A stretch of DNA of 64,000 bases. Source: Salibacterium qingdaonense. Lineage in GTDB: Bacteria > Bacillota > Bacilli > Bacillales > Marinococcaceae. Both the position numbers and the translations under genes were made by a program. Numbering within the stretch: the stretch's first letter is position 1; the number at the start of each line of letters is the position of its first letter. Shown here one piece after another: positions 40,452 to 49,269 of this stretch. The stretch covers positions 124,001-188,000 of the forward strand of contig NZ_FOTY01000004.1 in NCBI RefSeq assembly GCF_900114715.1. The letters are read 5' to 3'. The notes below the pieces were generated by a model. That model saw only the letters and a list, made by a program, of their open reading frames with translations. It had not been told where the DNA came from and searched no databases.

Positions 40452-41894
40452 CTACTGCTGTTGGTTCATTTTTTCAATCCTGGAAAGCGCTTGTGCCGTC
40501 ACTTTCATTTCTTCTTCTGTCAGCGTACGCATATCAACCAGTATTTTTTCATTTTTTACCCTGACTGCGATAGGAGGATCGGAATACGTACGAAGACACG
40601 CAGCCGCTTCCTCGGCAGAGACAGTAGATGGAGTAATGGCGGCAACGGCCGTTGGAAGTTCCACTTCCGGCATCGTTCCACCTCCGACTCTGGAGTATTC
40701 ATCTTCCACAGCCGCTTCCCACGTCAACAGCTGCAGGGAATCCAGAAATGTTTCGGCACGCTCTTTCACTTCCTCTTTTGTTTCAAGTACCATACGCACA
40801 GCCGGTATCTCTGTTTCCCTGTTCCCTGCGTAGGCTTTTAATGTTTCTTCAAGCGCCGCAATTGTCATTTTATCCACACGCAGCACCCGTGCCAGCTGAT
40901 GTTTTTTTAAACGGTCGATCCATTTTTTGCGGCCCGCTATAATTCCTGCCTGCGGACCGCCGAGAAGTTTGTCCCCGGAAAAAGTCACCAGGTCGGCACC
41001 TGTGGCAAGCGCTTCTTTCACAGTCGGTTCCGATCCAATGCCGTGCTCTTTAAAATCATACAGAGCACCACTCCCAAGATCCTCATAAACAATCATTTCC
41101 TGCTGCTGTTCGGCAGCCACCTCTGTGAGCTTTGAAAGCGGTACTTCTTCGGTGAATCCAATCGTTTTGAAGTTACTGGTGTGTACCTTCATCAGCATCG
41201 CTGTATCCGGACCAACTGCCCTTTCATAATCACTGCGGTGGGTTTTATTCGTCGTGCCTACTTCCACCAGCTTTGCTCCGCTTTCTTCCATGATAGAAGA
41301 TACACGAAACGAACCGCCTATTTCAACGAGCTGTCCGCGGGAGACGATCACTTCTTTTGTTTCAGCCAGTGCTTTTAACACCATGTAAACAGCAGCGGCA
41401 TTATTGTTAACAACCATGGCAGCTTCAGCACCGGTGACGGTCTGAATCAAATCTTCCAGAATATCATGCCGTGATCCGCGCCTGCCCGAAGCGATATCAT
41501 ATTCAAGACTGGAGTAGCCCGCAGCTGCTTCTCCGGCTTTTTTGACCGCTTCCGTGCTCATGTTGGCCCTTCCGAGGTTCGTATGGAGAATAGTGCCGGA
41601 CGCATTAATAACCCGCTTCAACCGGCTTTCACCGAAGGCATGAAGACGGTCGGATACCTGCTGAAACAAATAGGTTTCAACCTCTTCCCGGGAAGAAAGA
41701 TCAGGGCCTGATTCCTGAAGCCACCCTTCTCTCAGCATCTTTATTTCTGCGCGGAACCAATCTGTCAACAGACTTTCATTTCCCAGTTCTTCCTTTAACC
41801 ACTGAAACCTATCCTTATTCTGCAAATCGTGCACAGGGGGTATCCATCTCAGCTTATCTTTCACGTTGGGTTCACCTGCACTTTCGGGAGTCAT
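40452..41894 (-). CDS. selA: L-seryl-tRNA(Sec) selenium transferase
   Basis: SelA (up to 480 residues) is the PLP-dependent enzyme that turns Ser-tRNA(Sec) into Sec-tRNA(Sec) using selenophosphate. Signatures: INASGTILHTNLGRANMS near residue 91, YEDLGSGALYDF near residue 250, and the PLP Lys in VTFSGDKLLGGPQAG near residue 288. The family length is about 465, so the GTG at codon 11 (41864) is an alternative start; neither start has a textbook ribosome site. It follows the SelW-like gene by 53 bp on the same strand. No obvious terminator follows before citB. Confidence 0.96.
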   Translation of the reverse strand: MTPESAGEPNVKDKLRWIPPVHDLQNKDRFQWLKEELGNESLLTDWFRAEIKMLREGWLQESGPDLSSREEVETYLFQQVSDRLHAFGESRLKRVINASGTILHTNLGRANMSTEAVKKAGEAAAGYSSLEYDIASGRRGSRHDILEDLIQTVTGAEAAMVVNNNAAAVYMVLKALAETKEVIVSRGQLVEIGGSFRVSSIMEESGAKLVEVGTTNKTHRSDYERAVGPDTAMLMKVHTSNFKTIGFTEEVPLSKLTEVAAEQQQEMIVYEDLGSGALYDFKEHGIGSEPTVKEALATGADLVTFSGDKLLGGPQAGIIAGRKKWIDRLKKHQLARVLRVDKMTIAALEETLKAYAGNRETEIPAVRMVLETKEEVKERAETFLDSLQLLTWEAAVEDEYSRVGGGTMPEVELPTAVAAITPSTVSAEEAAACLRTYSDPPIAVRVKNEKILVDMRTLTEEEMKVTAQALSRIEKMNQQQ

Positions 41895-41947: not shown

Positions 41948-42184
41948 TCATCCATGCTCCCTGCCTATTTCTTCAGCCAGTTTATTTTCATCCGGAAATG
42001 TGCGGGTTTCTTTCTTGGAATAAACTTTTTTATTATCCACGGTCACTTCAAATACACCGCCGGAACCGGTGATAAGTTCTATCGAATCGATGGCTGCTCC
42101 GTGAACGTTGTATAAAGTATCCGCGAGACCCACGGCTTTTGGAGCATAATTTCACTGCATGCAGAATTCAATGGTGATTTTCAT
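41948..42184 (-). CDS. SelW/Rdx-family selenoprotein (UGA at codon 11)
   Basis: The 79-codon frame starts at ATG after AAGGAAG. In-frame TGA at 42152-42154 gives IEFCMQ-U-NYAPKA, the CxxU redox motif in the N-terminal strand-loop position of the SelW/SelT/SelH (Rdx, thioredoxin-like) family. ELITGSGGVFEVTVDNKKVYSK is the usual following hairpin. The length of 78 residues is normal for bacterial SelW-like proteins. It is probably a thiol/selenol redox protein. Ordinary calling would begin it at the GTG at 42133 and lose the active site. First gene of a unit with selA, divergent from selD. Confidence 0.92.
42121..42135 (-). promoter_or_regulatory. bSECIS element of the SelW-like gene
   Basis: In the mRNA CCGTG/CGCGG (5 bp, one G-U) closes a GGUCU loop that starts 21 nt after the UGA. 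A further AAAG/CTTT pairing with an ATA bulge extends it. Confidence 0.6.
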
Positions 42185-42264: not shown

Positions 42265-42297
42265 GATGGTAATGAAATCAGCGAGGAGGTGGATGCA

Positions 42298-43350
42298 GTG
42301 AGCAGAGGCGAAGAAATAAAATTAACCAGCCTTTCTACAAAAGCTGGTTGAGGATGCAAAATCGGTCCTGAGGACCTGACGCAGGTACTGCGTCATTTGC
42401 CGCAACGAGAAAAAGATCCCAACCTTATTGTAGGGGTGGATACATCCGATGACGGCGGTGTTTATAAATTAACCGATGACATCGCTCTCGTTCAGTCCGT
42501 CGACTATTTCACTCCGATTGTCGATGATCCTTATATGTTCGGCCAGATTGCCGCAGCAAATGCATTGAGCGACATTTATGCGATGGGCGGAAAACCGACC
42601 ACTGTTCTTAATATTGTCGGCTTCCCGATTAACGATCTTCCCGACGAAATTCTAGCCGGGATTATGAAAGGATCGGCCGATAAAGTCGATGAGTCCGGAG
42701 CAGCTATTACAGGCGGCCATTCGATTGATGATCAGGAGCCAAAATTTGGATTAGCCGCTACCGGCGTCGTTCATCCGGACAAGGTATGGGCCAACAAAGG
42801 AGCCCGGCCCGGTGACGCGCTTGTGTTAACGAAGCCGATAGGTGTCGGCATACTTACAACGGCTATTAAACGAAATCTGATCACCCCCGGACAGGAAGAA
42901 AAAGTGACCAATGTGATGGCGGAGCTCAATGATACCGCCGCGGAAACATTACAGTCTTTCCATCCGCATGCCGTAACGGATGTTACCGGCTTCGGACTGC
43001 TTGGACACGGTTTTGAAATGGCGGATGCCTCCGATGTAACATTTACTTTTTACGCAGGTGATGTGCCGGTTCTTGAAGGGGCATACGAGCTGGCTGAGGA
43101 TGGAGTGATGCCTGGAGGCTCTAAAGCCAATGCATCCTATCTGAAAGAACAGATAGGCAGAGACGAAAGCGTATCCGAAATCACCGGCAGCATTCTTTGT
43201 GATGCGGTTACGTCAGGCGGACTGCTTGCTGCAATGGACCCTGAAGAGGCAGACCAGTACGTAAAAGCCATGCACCAGCAGGGAAAAACCGACACGGCCG
43301 TCATCGGCGTAGTGGAGCAGCAAAAAAACCACCCCATTCAAATAAAATAA
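42298..43350 (+). CDS. selD: Selenophosphate synthetase with Sec in the active site (UGA at codon 18)
   Basis: SelD makes selenophosphate from selenide and ATP, the selenium donor for SelA. The gene starts at GTG, 7 bases after GAGGAGGT; 351 codons fit SelD (about 347). In-frame TGA at 42349-42351 gives TKAG-U-GCKIGPEDL, the place of the catalytic Cys/Sec in the conserved GxGCK loop, followed by Lys. The substrate-binding DTSDDGGVY and ITGGHSIDDQEPKFG near residue 143 are present. The enzyme is itself a selenoprotein, so it depends on the pathway it feeds. Normal calling would start at 42397 and remove the active site. Confidence 0.96.
42377..42395 (+). promoter_or_regulatory. bSECIS element of selD
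   Basis: A perfect stem TGACGCA/TGCGTCA closes a GGUAC loop (an eighth G-C pair is possible) that starts 32 nt after the UGA. Confidence 0.72.
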
Positions 43351-43496: not shown

Positions 43497-44252
43497 TCAA
43501 GCATGGATCGCTTTTCCATAAATCATTTCCAAATTACGGCTGTCCAGTTTATCCGGCGGGCCGTCATAAATCATTTCCCCGCCGACAAGCCCAATGACCC
43601 TTGTCGCAAAGGATTTGGCTAAAGCAACATCATGGACATTAATGAGCGACATCAATTGTTGTTTGTCATGTACGTCTTTCAGTATGCCAAACACTGACCG
43701 GGCCGTTCCCGGATCCAGGCTTGCCACCGGCTCATCTCCAAGAAACACCTCCGGTTCCTGCATAAGAGCGCGCGCAATACCAACGCGCTGTTTCTGTCCG
43801 CCGCTTAATGCTTCTACCCGGCGCCGGGCCATATCAACCAATCCCACTTTTTTGAGGACGCGTTCAGCTTTTTCCTTTTCCCTCTGACTGAAAAAGCCGG
43901 CGGCATTCAAAAATGCCCGGCGTTTTCCAAACAATCCCGTTAGTACATTCTGCTGTACCGTCAATCTTGGAATCAGATGAAAATGCTGAAAAATCATACC
44001 TGCCCGGCTGCGCCACGCCCGCTTTTGTGCTTCGGACATCTCATCTACATTTTCCCCCTGGATGAGTACCTGCCCGTATGTGACCGGCTGAAGCGCATTT
44101 ATAGTACGGATTAATGTTGATTTGCCGGCACCGCTTGGGCCGAGAACGCACACAAACTCCCCGGGCTGAAGCGAGAGATTCACGCGGCTCACAGCCGGCT
44201 CCTCTGCTTTTGGGTAATATACTGTCACATCGTCCAGCTCAATCAATCCCAT
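43497..44252 (-). CDS. PhnC-type ABC transporter ATP-binding protein
   Basis: This 251-residue ABC ATPase shows Walker A GPSGAGKST near residue 38, Q-loop MIFQHFHLIPR, signature LSGGQKQRVGIARAL near residue 150 and Walker B VFLGDEPVASLD. It is closest in pattern to PhnC of phosphonate/phosphite importers. It lies 17 bp after the permease gene in a D-E-C cassette. The location between selD and selB raises the possibility that the cargo is a selenium compound; phosphonate, phosphite or another oxyanion are the default alternatives. Confidence 0.85.
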   Translation of the reverse strand: MGLIELDDVTVYYPKAEEPAVSRVNLSLQPGEFVCVLGPSGAGKSTLIRTINALQPVTYGQVLIQGENVDEMSEAQKRAWRSRAGMIFQHFHLIPRLTVQQNVLTGLFGKRRAFLNAAGFFSQREKEKAERVLKKVGLVDMARRRVEALSGGQKQRVGIARALMQEPEVFLGDEPVASLDPGTARSVFGILKDVHDKQQLMSLINVHDVALAKSFATRVIGLVGGEMIYDGPPDKLDSRNLEMIYGKAIHA

Positions 44253-44269
44253 CCCTCTTTTCCATCAGG

Positions 44270-45031
44270 CTAAATAACACGTTTCCGGACAAAAGCCCCG
44301 AACAGGTCCACTGCGATAACAAGCACCATAATAAACAGGACTTCAACGGTCACAGCTGTGTAGTTAAAGCTGTTGAAATCATTAATCAGCTGCTGACCGA
44401 TCCCGCCGCCTCCGATGAAACCAAGAATCAAAGACGTCCGGATCGCCACTTCAAACCGGTAGAAGTAATGTGATAAAACGTTTGGCCAGATTTGGGGGAC
44501 CACCGCGAAAAGATTACCGATCCGCCGTCCGGATCCGACCGATTTCATTGCTTCCTGAGGGCCCGGATCAGCCGCTTCAATAAGCTCCGAAATCAGTTTG
44601 CCGAGAACACCTATATTGTGAAGCAGAATCGCAATCACCGCCGGAAACGGTCCAAGCCCGAGGACAACGACGAAGATAAGCCCGAACACAATTTCAGGAA
44701 TAGACCTGAGAATCGACAGAAAAAAACGGAGCAGGTAATACAGAACCGGATTTGCGGCGGTATTTTTGGCTGCCGCAAAACTGAGCGGAACCGCAATCAA
44801 AAGTGCAAAAAACGTACCGAGAAATGCAATCGCAAGCGTTACCAGTGCCGGATCAATCAAATTCGGGGATATGTCCCAGGAAGGTGGATAAAACTGTTCG
44901 CGCACAAATGTAACAGCATTACCGAACTCCTGGAATTTGCTCCATTCAAATTCGGTTTTTTTCATACTCCACCAAGTAAACACGACAAGCAGAAGTCCGT
45001 ATACCCACGCTCTTTTTTTTAACCAGGTCAT
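44270..45031 (-). CDS. PhnE-type ABC transporter permease
   Basis: This 253-residue inner-membrane permease has about six hydrophobic helices. The PhnE-type coupling region EAADPGPQEAMKSVGSGRR lies near residue 140. The ending FIGGGGIGQQLINDFNSFNY near residue 200 is typical of phosphonate-class permeases. It forms the channel for the PhnD-like binding protein, 29 bp upstream, and is energised by the PhnC-like ATPase downstream. Confidence 0.85.
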   Translation of the reverse strand: MTWLKKRAWVYGLLLVVFTWWSMKKTEFEWSKFQEFGNAVTFVREQFYPPSWDISPNLIDPALVTLAIAFLGTFFALLIAVPLSFAAAKNTAANPVLYYLLRFFLSILRSIPEIVFGLIFVVVLGLGPFPAVIAILLHNIGVLGKLISELIEAADPGPQEAMKSVGSGRRIGNLFAVVPQIWPNVLSHYFYRFEVAIRTSLILGFIGGGGIGQQLINDFNSFNYTAVTVEVLFIMVLVIAVDLFGAFVRKRVI

Positions 45032-45060
45032 TTCTTCTGCTCCTTTACATCATACGGCCG

Positions 45061-45987
45061 CTATTCTTCGACACTGTTCATGTTCAGCATGCCAAAGTCT
45101 GAAGCTGCCTGGGCAATATCTTCATAACTGCTGTGATCCGTTTCCACAAAGGCCGACGCGCCACCGAAGATGTCAAGAATCTGTTCATCTTCAATGGACG
45201 TAAAAGCGTCCTGAAACTGCTGTTTGAGCTCATCACTCATGCCGGACCGCGCCGCCCATGGGTACTGATAAATCTGATCCGACTGCCAGATTTTTTTTAC
45301 ATTACTCTCATCAATCGTACCTGCTTCTACAAGCTCATTGTAAATCGCACTGTCAATCGCACCGGCATCCACTTTATTATTTACTACGGCGTTGGCTGTC
45401 ACATCGTGGGATCCGGTATAACGAACCGAGGCAAATTCATTGTTTTCCTCCGATTCAAAAACCCCGCGGTCCCTCAGCTCAAGGCCCGGCATTAACGAAC
45501 CGGAAGTAGAAGATACACTGCCGAACGCAAAATTGACGTCACCCGGCTGCTCCAGCATTTCATCAAGACTGTTCCAAGGCTTGTCAACATGGGAGATAAT
45601 ATAGGAGTAGTAGTACGGCTTGCCGTCAATTTCCTGGGTGAGGATCGCTTCGGCCCCGCTTTCTTCATTGGCAATGACGTACGTGAGCGGACCTAAATAA
45701 GCAAGATCGATACGGCCGAAATTCAAGGCTTCCACCACCGCGTTATAGCTTGGATAGTGATCCACCGAGACACCGCTGTCCATCGACTCATTCAACGTGG
45801 TCTCAAGAGCATCCAGCCCGTCCTGCATTTCCCCTGCCGACTGGGCGGGGATCACAGCTACCTCCAATTGTTCACCGGAATCACTGCTGCTTGATCCCTC
45901 GTTTCCTGCTTCGCCTTCTGTTCCCCCGCCACATGCTCCCAGCATAAGCACAAACGAAGCAAATACTCCGATTAATGGCTTTTTCAT
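45061..45987 (-). CDS. PhnD-type substrate-binding lipoprotein
   Basis: The 308-residue protein has a lipoprotein signal with lipobox LGAC (Cys at residue 19), then a Gly/Ser/Glu-rich tether. The PhnD-like binding domain follows (LEVAVIPAQSAGEMQDGLDAL, near residue 41; GRIDLAYLGPLTYVIA near residue 91; FGSVSSTSGSLMPGLEL near residue 155). In PhnD the Tyr-Leu-Gly-Pro and Ser-x-S-T-S-G segments line the oxyanion pocket. The ligand is unknown; the genomic setting suggests selenite or an organic selenium compound as a candidate. First gene of its transcript. Confidence 0.85.
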   Translation of the reverse strand: MKKPLIGVFASFVLMLGACGGGTEGEAGNEGSSSSDSGEQLEVAVIPAQSAGEMQDGLDALETTLNESMDSGVSVDHYPSYNAVVEALNFGRIDLAYLGPLTYVIANEESGAEAILTQEIDGKPYYYSYIISHVDKPWNSLDEMLEQPGDVNFAFGSVSSTSGSLMPGLELRDRGVFESEENNEFASVRYTGSHDVTANAVVNNKVDAGAIDSAIYNELVEAGTIDESNVKKIWQSDQIYQYPWAARSGMSDELKQQFQDAFTSIEDEQILDIFGGASAFVETDHSSYEDIAQAASDFGMLNMNSVEE

Positions 45988-46112: not shown

Positions 46113-47138
46113 TCACTGCCGGAGCGAATCATACAGCGCCGTGTACCTGGCCGCTTCTTCTTCCGGGTGATGGTACCGGACAGCGTATTTTTCGGCTCCC
46201 CCGGCAACCCGGCGGTACAATAAAGAATCCTGCATCAACGCATCAAGAATCTCCACGAAAGCTTCTGGTGATGAAAACAGCCAGCCGTTGCTGCCGGATT
46301 CTATAATGCTTTCATTGCCGCCATTTTTTCTCGCAAGAGCAGGAACCCCGAGAACCATACCTTCGAGCAGACTCATCGGCTGCCCCTCCGAAACTGAGGT
46401 GTTCAGCACGACATCCGCCCATTCATAAAATGCCTTCATACTCGTTCGTTTAACAGGCGGATGCCAGGAGAACCAGGGCAGCTCCGCTTCCATTTTCTCC
46501 ACATTCTGCTGCACCTGTTCATCCATCCCCTCTCCTACGACCAGTAACTGAAGGCCCGGGAACCGGGAGATGTTCTCCTGCAGAGCGCCGCATACATAAA
46601 ATATGTCTTTTACTGGCCGCAGACCGGCCGGAAGGAGTAGTTTCGGTGATCCTGCCGGTAAAAACCGGGGCGCTTCCGGCTCTCCTTCCGGCACATCCAC
46701 AGCCTGGGGTATGACCGTCACTTTATCTGAAAGCCACGGAAAACCTTTCAGTATTTCCTGCTTTGCATCTTCGGTAAACACTGTTAACGCGCCGGCTCTC
46801 ATCAGCAGCCATTCCATGTTCTGCTTTTTTTCGGTATCGTGCAGATCAATATTAATATCTGTCCCGCCGCTCGTTAATACAAGCGGCTGTTTGATATGCA
46901 GGCCGTACGCTTCCACAAATTCCGCGGTCCGCCGTACATGAAGGGCGTGCACAATATCTGCTTGTTCAAGCTTCTCATCCAATGGCTCTTCCTCTTCTTC
47001 AAACGCATGCACCAACACACGGTGCCCTGCTTGTTCCAGGTGGGTTTTCATGCGCTGAGCTGTGGCCGCGTTTCCTCTTCCGGTATAATAATACGGCGTC
47101 AAATAAAGAATCTCGAGCGGATCAGACATGGCTGTCAT
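46113..47138 (-). CDS. GT4-family glycosyltransferase, SenB-like (candidate selenosugar synthase)
   Basis: This 341-residue GT-B glycosyltransferase has RGNAATAQRMKTHLEQAGH near residue 18, ALHVRRT near residue 64, LTSGGTDINIDLHD near residue 88, LRPVKD near residue 178 and the family-4 E-x7-E region NTSVSEGQPMSLLEGM near residue 265. The N-terminal GN-x2-TA-x-R-x-L-x-GH, LH-x-R, GTD-x3-D and LRPVKD blocks are what I recall of SenB, which makes a selenosugar from UDP-sugar and selenophosphate. The start follows TGGAG by 8 bases and overlaps selB by 17 bp, so the two are cotranslated. Other GT4 roles, such as lipid or thiol glycosylation, remain possible. Confidence 0.7.
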   Translation of the reverse strand: MTAMSDPLEILYLTPYYYTGRGNAATAQRMKTHLEQAGHRVLVHAFEEEEEPLDEKLEQADIVHALHVRRTAEFVEAYGLHIKQPLVLTSGGTDINIDLHDTEKKQNMEWLLMRAGALTVFTEDAKQEILKGFPWLSDKVTVIPQAVDVPEGEPEAPRFLPAGSPKLLLPAGLRPVKDIFYVCGALQENISRFPGLQLLVVGEGMDEQVQQNVEKMEAELPWFSWHPPVKRTSMKAFYEWADVVLNTSVSEGQPMSLLEGMVLGVPALARKNGGNESIIESGSNGWLFSSPEAFVEILDALMQDSLLYRRVAGGAEKYAVRYHHPEEEAARYTALYDSLRQ

Positions 47139-49038
47139 ATAGGTTTCTCCAGACTCGTTGTTCTTCTTCCCATTTTGTCCATTTCTGTTCATCAAGCCAC
47201 TCCAGAAAAGGAACGAGAAACTTTCTCGACACAGGCAGCACCTCTTTTGCCTGCTGCAAGGTAAAGGCCGCCGGATAGGCAGCATGAAGCATGTCCGCTG
47301 CCTCCTGCAGTTTCGAAACATCTCTTATATGCCTGTCATCCATGGATGAAGCCTCGCCGGACTGAAGAAGTGCATAGCGAAATTCGCTTCTCAAGTTTTC
47401 CGGTATCCCCTGTGCTTCCATGTATTCATCCCAAGGCTTCGGAGCGATGCCGTCCTGATGCCAGCTGCTTCGGGCCTGTTCCATTCTGCGTTCCCATCCT
47501 TTTGGATAGGAAGGAGTATGAGAAAAAGCTGCAACGTATTGTTTCTGCCGTGATATTTCCTTTTGTTCCACAGCTTCTTCCAAAAAACGTTCGGCGAGTT
47601 CCTTAGGCAGCTCCCCTGACGCAAAAAGAGAGAGCTCCTGTTTATTTTTCCCGATGCGGAGGGGGTATTGCTCGTGGAAAGTATGAAGCTCCGACAGCAT
47701 GTCCCCGATGTATTCGTCATAAAGCTCCTGCAGAACCGTTTTTTTGTTATCATACGTTTTAGCCCGGCCCTTTTGAGACAGGTTTGCCACAACTGCCTCG
47801 GCATCTTCGTGCAGCAGTCCGGTTTCCTTTGCCAGCTGTTCGACGTTCAACCACTTATGCTCGCGGAGCGCTTCTTTCACGTGCTCTTCCGGAGTGCCCT
47901 GCTTTTCCTGCTCCAGCTTTTCGATAGACTCCCGGCCAAAACGCATTCGTTCAGCATTTGGATTCAGAACCCAGCCTCCTCCAATCGTTTCCATCGGGGA
48001 AGGCCTTCGTAAAATAAAACGATCCGCCCTTTTTGTTACGACCGGATCGTCCAGCACAAGCTGACATAACACTTCCTGTTTTCCGCCGGCATCCAGCGCA
48101 TTCCGGTCAAAAAAAACGATTGTGCCGAACACCTCGGCCGTACCGAGGTGAAGTTTTACCTGGCCGCGCTGTTTCAGCGCATATACTGCTTCTTTTGAGG
48201 TATAAAGCACGACGTTCAACCGTGTGGTCGTTACGTAATGTTCCGCCGAGACAACAACGTCACCCCGCTTCAGCTCTTCTTTATCCACTCCACCCAGGTT
48301 CATGGCCAGGCGCTGACCTGCCATCCCTTTTGGTACGCGGACACCGTGACGCTGAAGCTGGCGGATCTTTCCTTTTTTTCGCAGGGGCAGCATCTGCACT
48401 ATGTCTCCTTCTGCAATCTGACCTTCATACACTGTGCCGCGCACGATGGTTCCCTGCCCATGAACAGAAAACACTTGATCAATCGGCAGACGAAAAGCTC
48501 CTCTGGCGTCACGGACAACCAGACGGTCCAGCATATCCGTCATAACCGTCCGCGTCTGTTCTATACCGTTTCCGGTCATACTGTCGACAAATACCATTTC
48601 CGCCTGTTCAAAAGGAGTACCCTGCACCTCACTCCGGATATCCTCCCCGGCCAGTTCCAGAAGATCGTCCTCCACTTTATCTGCTTTTGTGACGGCAATC
48701 AGCCCCCCGGTTACGCCAAGAAGAGATAATATTTCAAGATGTTCTTTCGTCTGCGGCATAACGCCTTCATCTGCCGCAACTGTCAACACGACCGCATCAA
48801 TACCCGCTACCCCGGCGATCATCTGCCGGATAAAACGTTCATGCCCCGGAACATCGATAATGGAAACTTCCATATCCTCTCTCAATTGGAGCGGGGCAAA
48901 CCCGGGTTCTATCGAAACATTCCGCTCCTTTTCTTCTTTTAAACGGTCGGTGTCATAATTTGTAAGTGCTTTGGTCAGCGCCGTTTTCCCGTGATCAATA
49001 TGTCCGGCCATCCCAATGGTATACATACGCTTTGCCAT
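47122..49038 (-). CDS. selB: Selenocysteine-specific elongation factor SelB
   Basis: SelB (638 residues) delivers Sec-tRNA(Sec) to the ribosome at UGA codons marked by a SECIS. The EF-Tu-like half has GHIDHGKTALTKAL at residues 12-25, IDVPGHERFIRQM near residue 60 and VTKADKVED near residue 115. Domains II-III follow to about residue 370. The C-terminal half is made of winged-helix repeats, the last binding the SECIS loop. AAGGCGGG precedes the ATG. It is first in a unit with the glycosyltransferase and divergent from selC. Confidence 0.97.
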   Translation of the reverse strand: MAKRMYTIGMAGHIDHGKTALTKALTNYDTDRLKEEKERNVSIEPGFAPLQLREDMEVSIIDVPGHERFIRQMIAGVAGIDAVVLTVAADEGVMPQTKEHLEILSLLGVTGGLIAVTKADKVEDDLLELAGEDIRSEVQGTPFEQAEMVFVDSMTGNGIEQTRTVMTDMLDRLVVRDARGAFRLPIDQVFSVHGQGTIVRGTVYEGQIAEGDIVQMLPLRKKGKIRQLQRHGVRVPKGMAGQRLAMNLGGVDKEELKRGDVVVSAEHYVTTTRLNVVLYTSKEAVYALKQRGQVKLHLGTAEVFGTIVFFDRNALDAGGKQEVLCQLVLDDPVVTKRADRFILRRPSPMETIGGGWVLNPNAERMRFGRESIEKLEQEKQGTPEEHVKEALREHKWLNVEQLAKETGLLHEDAEAVVANLSQKGRAKTYDNKKTVLQELYDEYIGDMLSELHTFHEQYPLRIGKNKQELSLFASGELPKELAERFLEEAVEQKEISRQKQYVAAFSHTPSYPKGWERRMEQARSSWHQDGIAPKPWDEYMEAQGIPENLRSEFRYALLQSGEASSMDDRHIRDVSKLQEAADMLHAAYPAAFTLQQAKEVLPVSRKFLVPFLEWLDEQKWTKWEEEQRVWRNLYDSHV

Positions 49039-49173: not shown

Positions 49174-49269
49174 GGGGCCGGTTGCGATGCTGGTGCACGC
49201 CAAAGTCTTCAAAACTTCCGGGAGGCGCGTGACGTCTCCGCTGGGTTCGATTCCCAGACGGTCCCGCCA
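49174..49269 (+). tRNA. selC: tRNA-Sec (anticodon UCA)
   Basis: This 96-nt tRNA has the anticodon loop CTTCAAA with TCA at 49209-49211 and a long variable arm (GGAGGC/GTCTCC around GCGTGAC). The T arm is CTGGG-TTCGATT-CCCAG, and CCA is encoded at 49267-49269. The acceptor stem GGGGCCG/CGGTCCC plus one weak eighth pair fits the 8+5 architecture of bacterial tRNA-Sec, with the G73 discriminator. The anticodon stem has only four good pairs. Its 3' end is 4 bp from the convergent yueI stop, with no terminator between. Confidence 0.95.

Follow-up and report, generated by a model that had tools for sequence, protein, structure and literature searches.

Salibacterium qingdaonense carries, directly after its gene for the selenocysteine (Sec)-specific elongation factor SelB, a gene for a GT4 glycosyltransferase, P0001, with a SenB-like acceptor site. 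We propose that P0001 probably joins selenophosphate to a UDP-sugar, and that it would act in a selenosugar pathway that includes a deacetylase in most relatives and is independent of SenA and selenoneine. This proposal was derived from sequence comparisons. The occurrence of the gene follows that of selB and selD in the genome samples searched, and in most of these genomes it is accompanied by an N-deacetylase gene.

The glycosyltransferase gene and its selenium locus

We analyzed a window of 64 kb of S. qingdaonense DNA. The open reading frame of P0001 (341 aa) runs on the minus strand from an ATG at 47138-47136 to a stop at 46113, with GGAG 8 nt upstream of the ATG. A first-pass annotation of this DNA had described a 17-bp overlap between the start of the gene and the stop of selB, together with four motif blocks, and we found all of these on the minus strand. 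The two genes share 17 bp (8 bp if an alternative in-frame ATG at 47129 is used), and the blocks read GNAATAQR, LHVR, GTDINID, and LRPVKD. The last was listed there as a SenB block; it is present in P0001 but is not specific to SenB, as BshA has LRPVKD too. The window contains the following features.

40452-41894, minus strand: selA, selenocysteine synthase (TIGR00474, 538.9 bits, cut-off 267.9)
41948-42184, minus strand: SelW-like selenoprotein of the SelW/SelT/SelH family, CMQU, 78 aa (TIGR02174, 57.3, cut-off 34.2)
42298-43350, plus strand: selD, selenophosphate synthetase (TIGR00476, 400.4 bits; one TGA inside)
43497-44252, minus strand: PhnC-type ABC ATPase (TIGR02315, 280.2, above the cut-off of 266.1)
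44270-45031, minus strand: PhnE-type ABC permease (TIGR01097, 259.1, above the cut-off of 216.7)
45061-45987, minus strand: PhnD-type ABC substrate-binding lipoprotein (TIGR01098, 185.7, above the cut-off of 112)
46113-47138, minus strand: SenB-like GT4 glycosyltransferase P0001, predicted Se-glycosyltransferase, 341 aa (motifs, tree, profile scores)
47122-49038, minus strand: selB, Sec-specific elongation factor (TIGR00475, 336.5 bits, cut-off 242.25)
49174-49269, plus strand: tRNA-Sec, anticodon TCA (tRNA call)

The neighbourhood of P0001 is a full and genuine selenocysteine-decoding locus. SelD itself needs Sec, as its gene has an in-frame TGA at 42349-42351 in the context AG-U-GCK (the start was taken as GTG at 42298, with GTG at 42289 also possible). 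The SelW-like selenoprotein gene sits between selA and selD, and its product passes TIGR02174 once the TGA is translated as Sec.

A PhnCDE-type ABC transporter (43497-45987, minus strand) is embedded in the locus, and the PhnD cluster was found in 34 of 54 fetched stretches. The PhnD-type lipoprotein scored 162.2 against TIGR04553, a 'putative selenate' model with a cut-off of 250, and the cut-off of the PhnD model was also missed. Might the transporter carry selenite, selenate, or a selenosugar? The gene-cluster counts over the 54 stretches come from mechanical picking of open reading frames, which missed the glycosyltransferase in the S. qingdaonense stretch itself and similarly affected GC-rich loci; the deacetylase count over 80 loci, given below, was redone in six frames.

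Family placement and active site

The best NCBIfam model for P0001 was NF038229 (221.9 bits, cut-off 400 not reached). Scores against the SenB model TIGR04348 (88.6 bits) and the BshA model TIGR03999 (57 bits) were also below the cut-offs of 300 and 273.7, respectively. The annotation had named a better score to another characterised GT4 family as a point to check; none was found for P0001. As controls, the Hydrogenophaga SenB scored 415.4 against TIGR04348, and the BshA encoded in the S. qingdaonense genome scored 552.2 against TIGR03999. The second-best family of the true SenB was NF038229 (103.7 bits), and it had no BshA match at E 1e-8. A Clostridial member (L160) scored higher for BshA (69.6) than for SenB (59.9), and a profile of 11 family members scored 83-95 bits with BshA and 69-74 bits with SenB in the PDB. 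At two loci (L191 and L233), the glycosyltransferase was broken into two open reading frames.

We constructed a tree of 54 rows, in which the glycosyltransferase family and SenB were split from BshA (two rows) and other GT4 proteins (five rows) with support of 97/99. A topology that placed the family with BshA and left SenB outside received a p-AU of 0.0148, for groups that were named after the tree was seen. The exact position of SenB in the tree is unsure, with long branches. In pairwise comparisons, SenB aligned with residues 8-95 of P0001, the N-terminal acceptor half (32% over 90 aa), and BshA aligned with residues 86-337. The AlphaFold model of P0001 (pLDDT 93.7) was matched by Foldseek to SenB with UDP-Glc and PO4 first (E 1.0e-18) and to BshA next (E 3.2e-18), while VIA gave Z scores of 34.7 for BshA and 32.7 for SenB. 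Fold comparison was dropped as a judge between the two because of this near tie. That P0001 is simply the BshA of this genome was ruled out, as the genome carries its own bshB1-bshA pair.

To compare the active sites, we took the roles of SenB residues from the mutagenesis described in the excerpted text of PMC10891094 and numbered the P0001 equivalents by motif. SenB N20, T23, H58, R61, T85, and D86 correspond to N23, T26, H67, R70, T93, and D94 of P0001, and R155, K158, E231, and E239 correspond to R174, K177, E251, and E259. The sugar-binding triad N20/T23/E231 is kept in P0001 as N23, T26, and E251. Five of the six residues of the selenophosphate pocket (N20/H58/R61/T83/T85/R155) are kept as N23, H67, R70, T93, and R174. 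The sixth, T83, is Gly in P0001 and in all 18 aligned group A proteins, and is kept elsewhere in the family. SenB H235 is not kept, with EGGAHV replaced by EGQPMS. The lysine that cleaves the Se-P bond, K158, is K177 in P0001; it is not diagnostic of SenB, because Lys also occupies this position in the rows of BshA and other GT4 proteins. BshA shares R155 with SenB as well, and the R-x-V-K within LRPVKD is also found in BshA.

Conservation of these residues varied among groups of the family. R61 and H58 were each kept in 5 of 8 group B proteins; R61 was kept in none of the 3 group C and none of the 8 Clostridial group D proteins, and H58 in 5 of the latter 8. At SenB N20/T23/H58/R61/T83, the corresponding residues are S, V, Y, P, and H in both BshA proteins and N, T, H, R, and G in P0001. 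The contrast between SenB and BshA therefore lies on the acceptor side, where the family is mostly SenB-like, most firmly at N20 and T23. The description of P0001 as a SenB-like glycosyltransferase thus held with respect to its tie to selenium and its grouping with SenB in the tree, but did not extend to SenB itself: the TIGR04348 score stays far under its cut-off, NF038229 fits better, and both EGGAHV and T83 are lost.

Association with selenium genes and deacetylases

In the host family, the glycosyltransferase was found in 14 of 29 genomes, exactly the 14 with selB and selD over the curated cut-offs, and it directly followed selB in all 14. At a threshold of E 1e-25 or better, 51 of 199 genomes of an order sample had the gene, and all 51 had both selD and selB. 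Its neighbour was selB in 34 of these and selD in 10; in the other 7 it lay near neither. It was found in none of the 85 genomes of this sample that lack selD and in none of the 18 that have selD without selB; several of those 18 have a selD lacking the in-frame TGA. Two checks put forward in the annotation came out in favor of a link to selenium: the selB-glycosyltransferase pair recurs elsewhere, and the gene is absent from relatives lacking selD, including all 15 in the host family.

A phylum sample gave NF038229 matches (E 1e-30 or better) in 18 of 299 genomes, all 18 of which have selD, compared with 198 of the 299 overall. Fourteen matches scored 197-293 bits, and four were weak (107-111 bits); the two weak ones inspected (L165 and L166) resemble other GT4 proteins, L166 being like BshA. 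None of the 299 genomes exceeded the NF038229 cut-off of 400. Across the samples, which partly overlap and in which related genomes are not independent, adjacency of the glycosyltransferase and selB is far beyond chance, and the genomic link of the glycosyltransferase to selenium is very strong.

We also examined other neighbours of the gene. A LysR-like gene follows the glycosyltransferase in two of four Candidatus Methylomirabilota stretches (L199 and L227); of the other two, L192 has a LysR-like piece of 68 bits and L193 has none. The L227 protein scored 293.3 bits against NF040786, 'selenium metabolism-associated', passing the cut-off of 250. One LysR cluster occurred near the glycosyltransferase in 15 of 50 stretches bearing it, and both proteins tested pass NF040786. 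The neighbour listings showed selD, the transporter, and LysR beside the glycosyltransferase, and no other gene recurred widely there. The genomes of L130, L131, L167, and L168 each have a divergent selD as a second copy, containing an in-frame TGA and located near a LysR of the selenium-type cluster; this selD lies beside a CE4 deacetylase gene in L130 and near one in L167, and L167 and L168 also encode a 109-aa protein (DsrE-like, tested in L167). The group C genes (L106, L108, and L109), which have no sel linkage, adjoin a flavin reductase gene (PF01613, tested in L108); as a general partner the flavin reductase was rejected, being confined to these three loci. Plasmid records contained one glycosyltransferase of this kind, in Streptomyces, along with four weaker GT4 matches and three annotated SenB. 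The Streptomyces plasmid gene (L133) lies beside genes for an alpha/beta hydrolase, a HAD hydrolase, and an MFS transporter and has no annotated selenium gene nearby, so the fold may serve other acceptors.

A CE4 deacetylase was a frequent partner of the glycosyltransferase. The operon order in group B is GT-selD-phnDEC-CE4, and in L094, L096, L098, and L107 the pair GT-CE4 occurs alone. The partner is a NodB-type protein of ~196 aa (PF01522) starting with MYDS-D. By eye, the CE4 blocks are kept (DD, HxxxH, RPPFG, and a late His) and no signal peptide is seen. Using a profile built from 13 sequences and a threshold of E 1e-50, we found CE4 in 42 of the 51 order-sample genomes with the glycosyltransferase and in none of the 148 without it. 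Among seven families that include Sec decoders with and without the glycosyltransferase, CE4 was present in 17 of 20 genomes with it and 0 of 17 without it. In the host family, CE4 was found in 9 of 14 genomes with the glycosyltransferase and 0 of 15 without it, the gap falling between E 2.7e-46 and 1.5e-40; one of the nine copies (G020) is truncated and was left out of the order count. The CE4 gene of G152 has an in-frame TAG.

The association extends to unlinked genes. Of the 34 genomes in which the glycosyltransferase adjoins selB, 25 carry CE4 on a different contig or separated from the glycosyltransferase by 46 kb or more. We examined the neighbours of 20 unlinked CE4 copies (20 genomes, one copy truncated), and the most frequent recurring cluster, ABC ATPase-like, was found around 4 of 20. 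Without a recurrent neighbour, linkage is no explanation of the association there. A conserved third pathway gene was rejected on the same count.

In the S. qingdaonense genome the partner CE4 is absent, the best match (119.8 bits) being within the general CE4 range. It is also missing from 8 other genomes among the 51. Within the genus, G018 has an intact copy, G020 (L269) has a truncated one (an open reading frame of 127 aa), and G019 and G000 have none, a pattern that suggests ongoing loss of the partner there. The only PIG-L deacetylase found in the S. qingdaonense genome is BshB1, in the bshB1-bshA pair.

PIG-L proteins take the place beside the glycosyltransferase in Syntrophomonas-type genomes. 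The stronger phylum matches gave 13 stretches, in 7 of which a PIG-L gene precedes the glycosyltransferase and in 1 of which a CE4 gene follows it; two PIG-L neighbours were tested, and both match PF02585 and are nearest to BshB1. PIG-L presence alone was rejected as a marker, as each of the 29 host-family genomes has at least one. Among the best 80 of 156 loci found via the glycosyltransferase alone, a deacetylase gene lay within 8 kb in 63 (CE4 in 42 and PIG-L in 21), 7 were beside selB without CE4 or PIG-L, and 10 had no deacetylase, selB, or selD nearby, some of them on short contigs. In L159 and L164, the gene next to the glycosyltransferase encodes a protein (456-485 aa) whose N terminus is NodB-like; this protein barely passes PF01522 in L159 (24.6 bits, cut-off 23.1) and has no Pfam match in L164, and this is a possible third deacetylase type. 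That the glycosyltransferase is accompanied by two or three unrelated or distant types of N-deacetylase is a new observation.

Proposed pathway, alternatives, and known systems

The deacetylase partners say most about the product of the glycosyltransferase. One glycosyltransferase with unrelated deacetylases is expected if it makes an N-acetylated sugar conjugate that needs deacetylation, as in bacillithiol and mycothiol synthesis. Given the SenB-like acceptor site and a strict dependence on the presence of selenium genes, 1-seleno-GlcNAc would be the simplest product, followed by 1-seleno-glucosamine. We infer that SelD would supply selenophosphate as the acceptor for a cytoplasmic GT-B enzyme, with a UDP-sugar, most likely UDP-GlcNAc, as the donor. 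The enzyme would form the C-Se bond and free phosphate, as SenB does, to give 1-seleno-GlcNAc. In most relatives that have the glycosyltransferase, this would be converted to 1-seleno-glucosamine by a cytoplasmic N-deacetylase dedicated to the step, of the CE4 type in Bacillales and of the PIG-L type in Syntrophomonadales; such a two-step logic, with no SenA, resembles that of BshA/BshB or MshA/MshB. With CE4 missing in S. qingdaonense, the product there may stay acetylated, the acetylated selenosugar being the end product, or BshB1 may fill in.

In cells that decode Sec, the small selenol or selenosugar would buffer selenium or act as a reductant. More tentatively, with the odds close to even but slightly against, many Bacillota that decode Sec may possess a selenium counterpart of bacillithiol synthesis, in which two enzymes, a glycosyltransferase dependent on selenophosphate and an N-deacetylase, yield a selenol of low molecular weight (1-seleno-glucosamine or a derivative) that would store or hand over selenium. 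Two or three types of deacetylase (CE4, PIG-L, and perhaps the NodB-like protein of 456-485 aa) would have been recruited to it separately. A selenol that stores selenium or hands it to selenocysteine synthesis would explain why the occurrence of the glycosyltransferase follows selB rather than just selD.

Three other explanations were weighed. A BshA-like enzyme could transfer GlcNAc onto a non-selenium acceptor, such as a small acid or polyol, and together with the deacetylase yield the precursor of a thiol cofactor that reduces or carries selenium, so that the connection with selenium would be indirect. P0001 shares the fold and the R-x-V-K donor site of BshA, the PIG-L partners in Clostridial genomes are nearest to BshB1, and the 11-sequence profile favours BshA. 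However, the acceptor half aligns with SenB and BshA aligns only from residue 86 onward, the five acceptor-side positions differ between BshA and P0001, and the topology joining the family to BshA without SenB had the low p-AU given above. S. qingdaonense also has its separate bshB1-bshA pair, and in the neighbour listings no gene beyond selD, the transporter, and LysR is widely recurrent beside the glycosyltransferase. We consider this explanation unlikely, though it is the strongest of the three.

The GT4 and CE4 families act mostly on glycans. The glycosyltransferase could accordingly act on a macromolecule or envelope glycan and move as a block with the sel genes, with CE4 deacetylating the glycan, and in group B operons some of the co-occurrence does follow from linkage alone. 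This is very improbable: CE4 is unlinked in 25 of 34 genomes with a selB-adjacent glycosyltransferase, yet occurs in 0 of 148 genomes without the glycosyltransferase; it has no visible signal peptide, unlike secreted glycan deacetylases; and the 7 of 51 glycosyltransferase genes near neither selB nor selD are still found exclusively in Sec decoders. Least probable of all, and barely credible to us, is a plain SenB that makes a selenosugar for selenoneine with an unlinked SenA. The SenB-like residues and the tree position agree with it, and the search for SenA was confined to the window and the fetched stretches. That search, a phmmer run with two SenA sequences in which the positive control was found, recovered no SenA-like gene in the window or in 259 other stretches (~2.55 Mb, overlapping), in line with the absence of a SenA-like partner noted in the annotation. 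P0001 is also far under the TIGR04348 cut-off, and the selenoneine pathway, as presented in the excerpted text of PMC10702425, has no step for a dedicated deacetylase. The annotation's suggestion that a SenB-like glycosyltransferase without senA points to a selenometabolite other than selenoneine is thus supported by the selenium link and by the lack of a SenA in these stretches. A selenosugar pathway with a deacetylase in most relatives remains our preferred reading.

If true, this proposal would place another dedicated selenometabolite pathway alongside that of selenoneine, extend the selenocysteine metabolism of Gram-positive bacteria by a new branch or store, and assign a function to a family of glycosyltransferases for which none is currently stated. 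Ovoselenol is a later selenium metabolite. According to the excerpted text of PMC10702425, the sen cluster was the first dedicated selenometabolite pathway, and its discoverers expect others (PMC9814287). Because the analysis names an enzyme pair with its probable donor and acceptor, as well as genera that host it (Planococcus, Rossellomorea, Cytobacillus, and Syntrophomonas), the 'selenometabolome' question can now be tested directly.

The open full-text papers searched contained no mention of NF038229, and 'GPMC system' was absent from them among the matches listed. Likewise, no SenB-like enzyme in Sec-decoding Bacillota, or with a deacetylase, was described among the matches listed. The closest paper among these was PMC5322559, on the selenium LysR, whose excerpted text mentions a glycosyltransferase a single time, in a STRING table beside YedE. 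The main text of PMC2432076 does not contain glycosyl, deacetylase, Bacillus, or phosphonate.

Among known systems, the selenium-linked regulator LysR_Se (NF040786; excerpted text of PMC5322559) has a relative near the glycosyltransferase. NF038229, the 'GPMC system family 4 glycosyltransferase', is the nearly full-length best match of the glycosyltransferases scanned (222-286 bits), but every sequence tested missed its cut-off of 400, and its name tells no reaction. The model (short name Glyco4_Geo_Pelo) seems to be named for Geobacter and Pelobacter, neither of which appeared in the record titles of the best 80 of 156 loci. BshA/BshB (TIGR03999/TIGR04001) and MshA/MshB share the two-step logic of a GT4 glycosyltransferase and an N-deacetylase; the donor domain of BshA is similar to that of the family, but the acceptor site differs. 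SenB (TIGR04348; PDB 8FBX, 8JJN, and 8K5U) resembles P0001 in its GT-B fold, in the acceptor residues N20/T23/H58/R61/T85, in R155/K158 and E231/E239, and in being tied to selenophosphate synthetase. Unlike SenB, P0001 scores 88.6 against a cut-off of 300, has Gly for T83 and EGQ for EGGAH, and belongs to a family whose partners in the fetched stretches are selB or selD and deacetylases, with no SenA.
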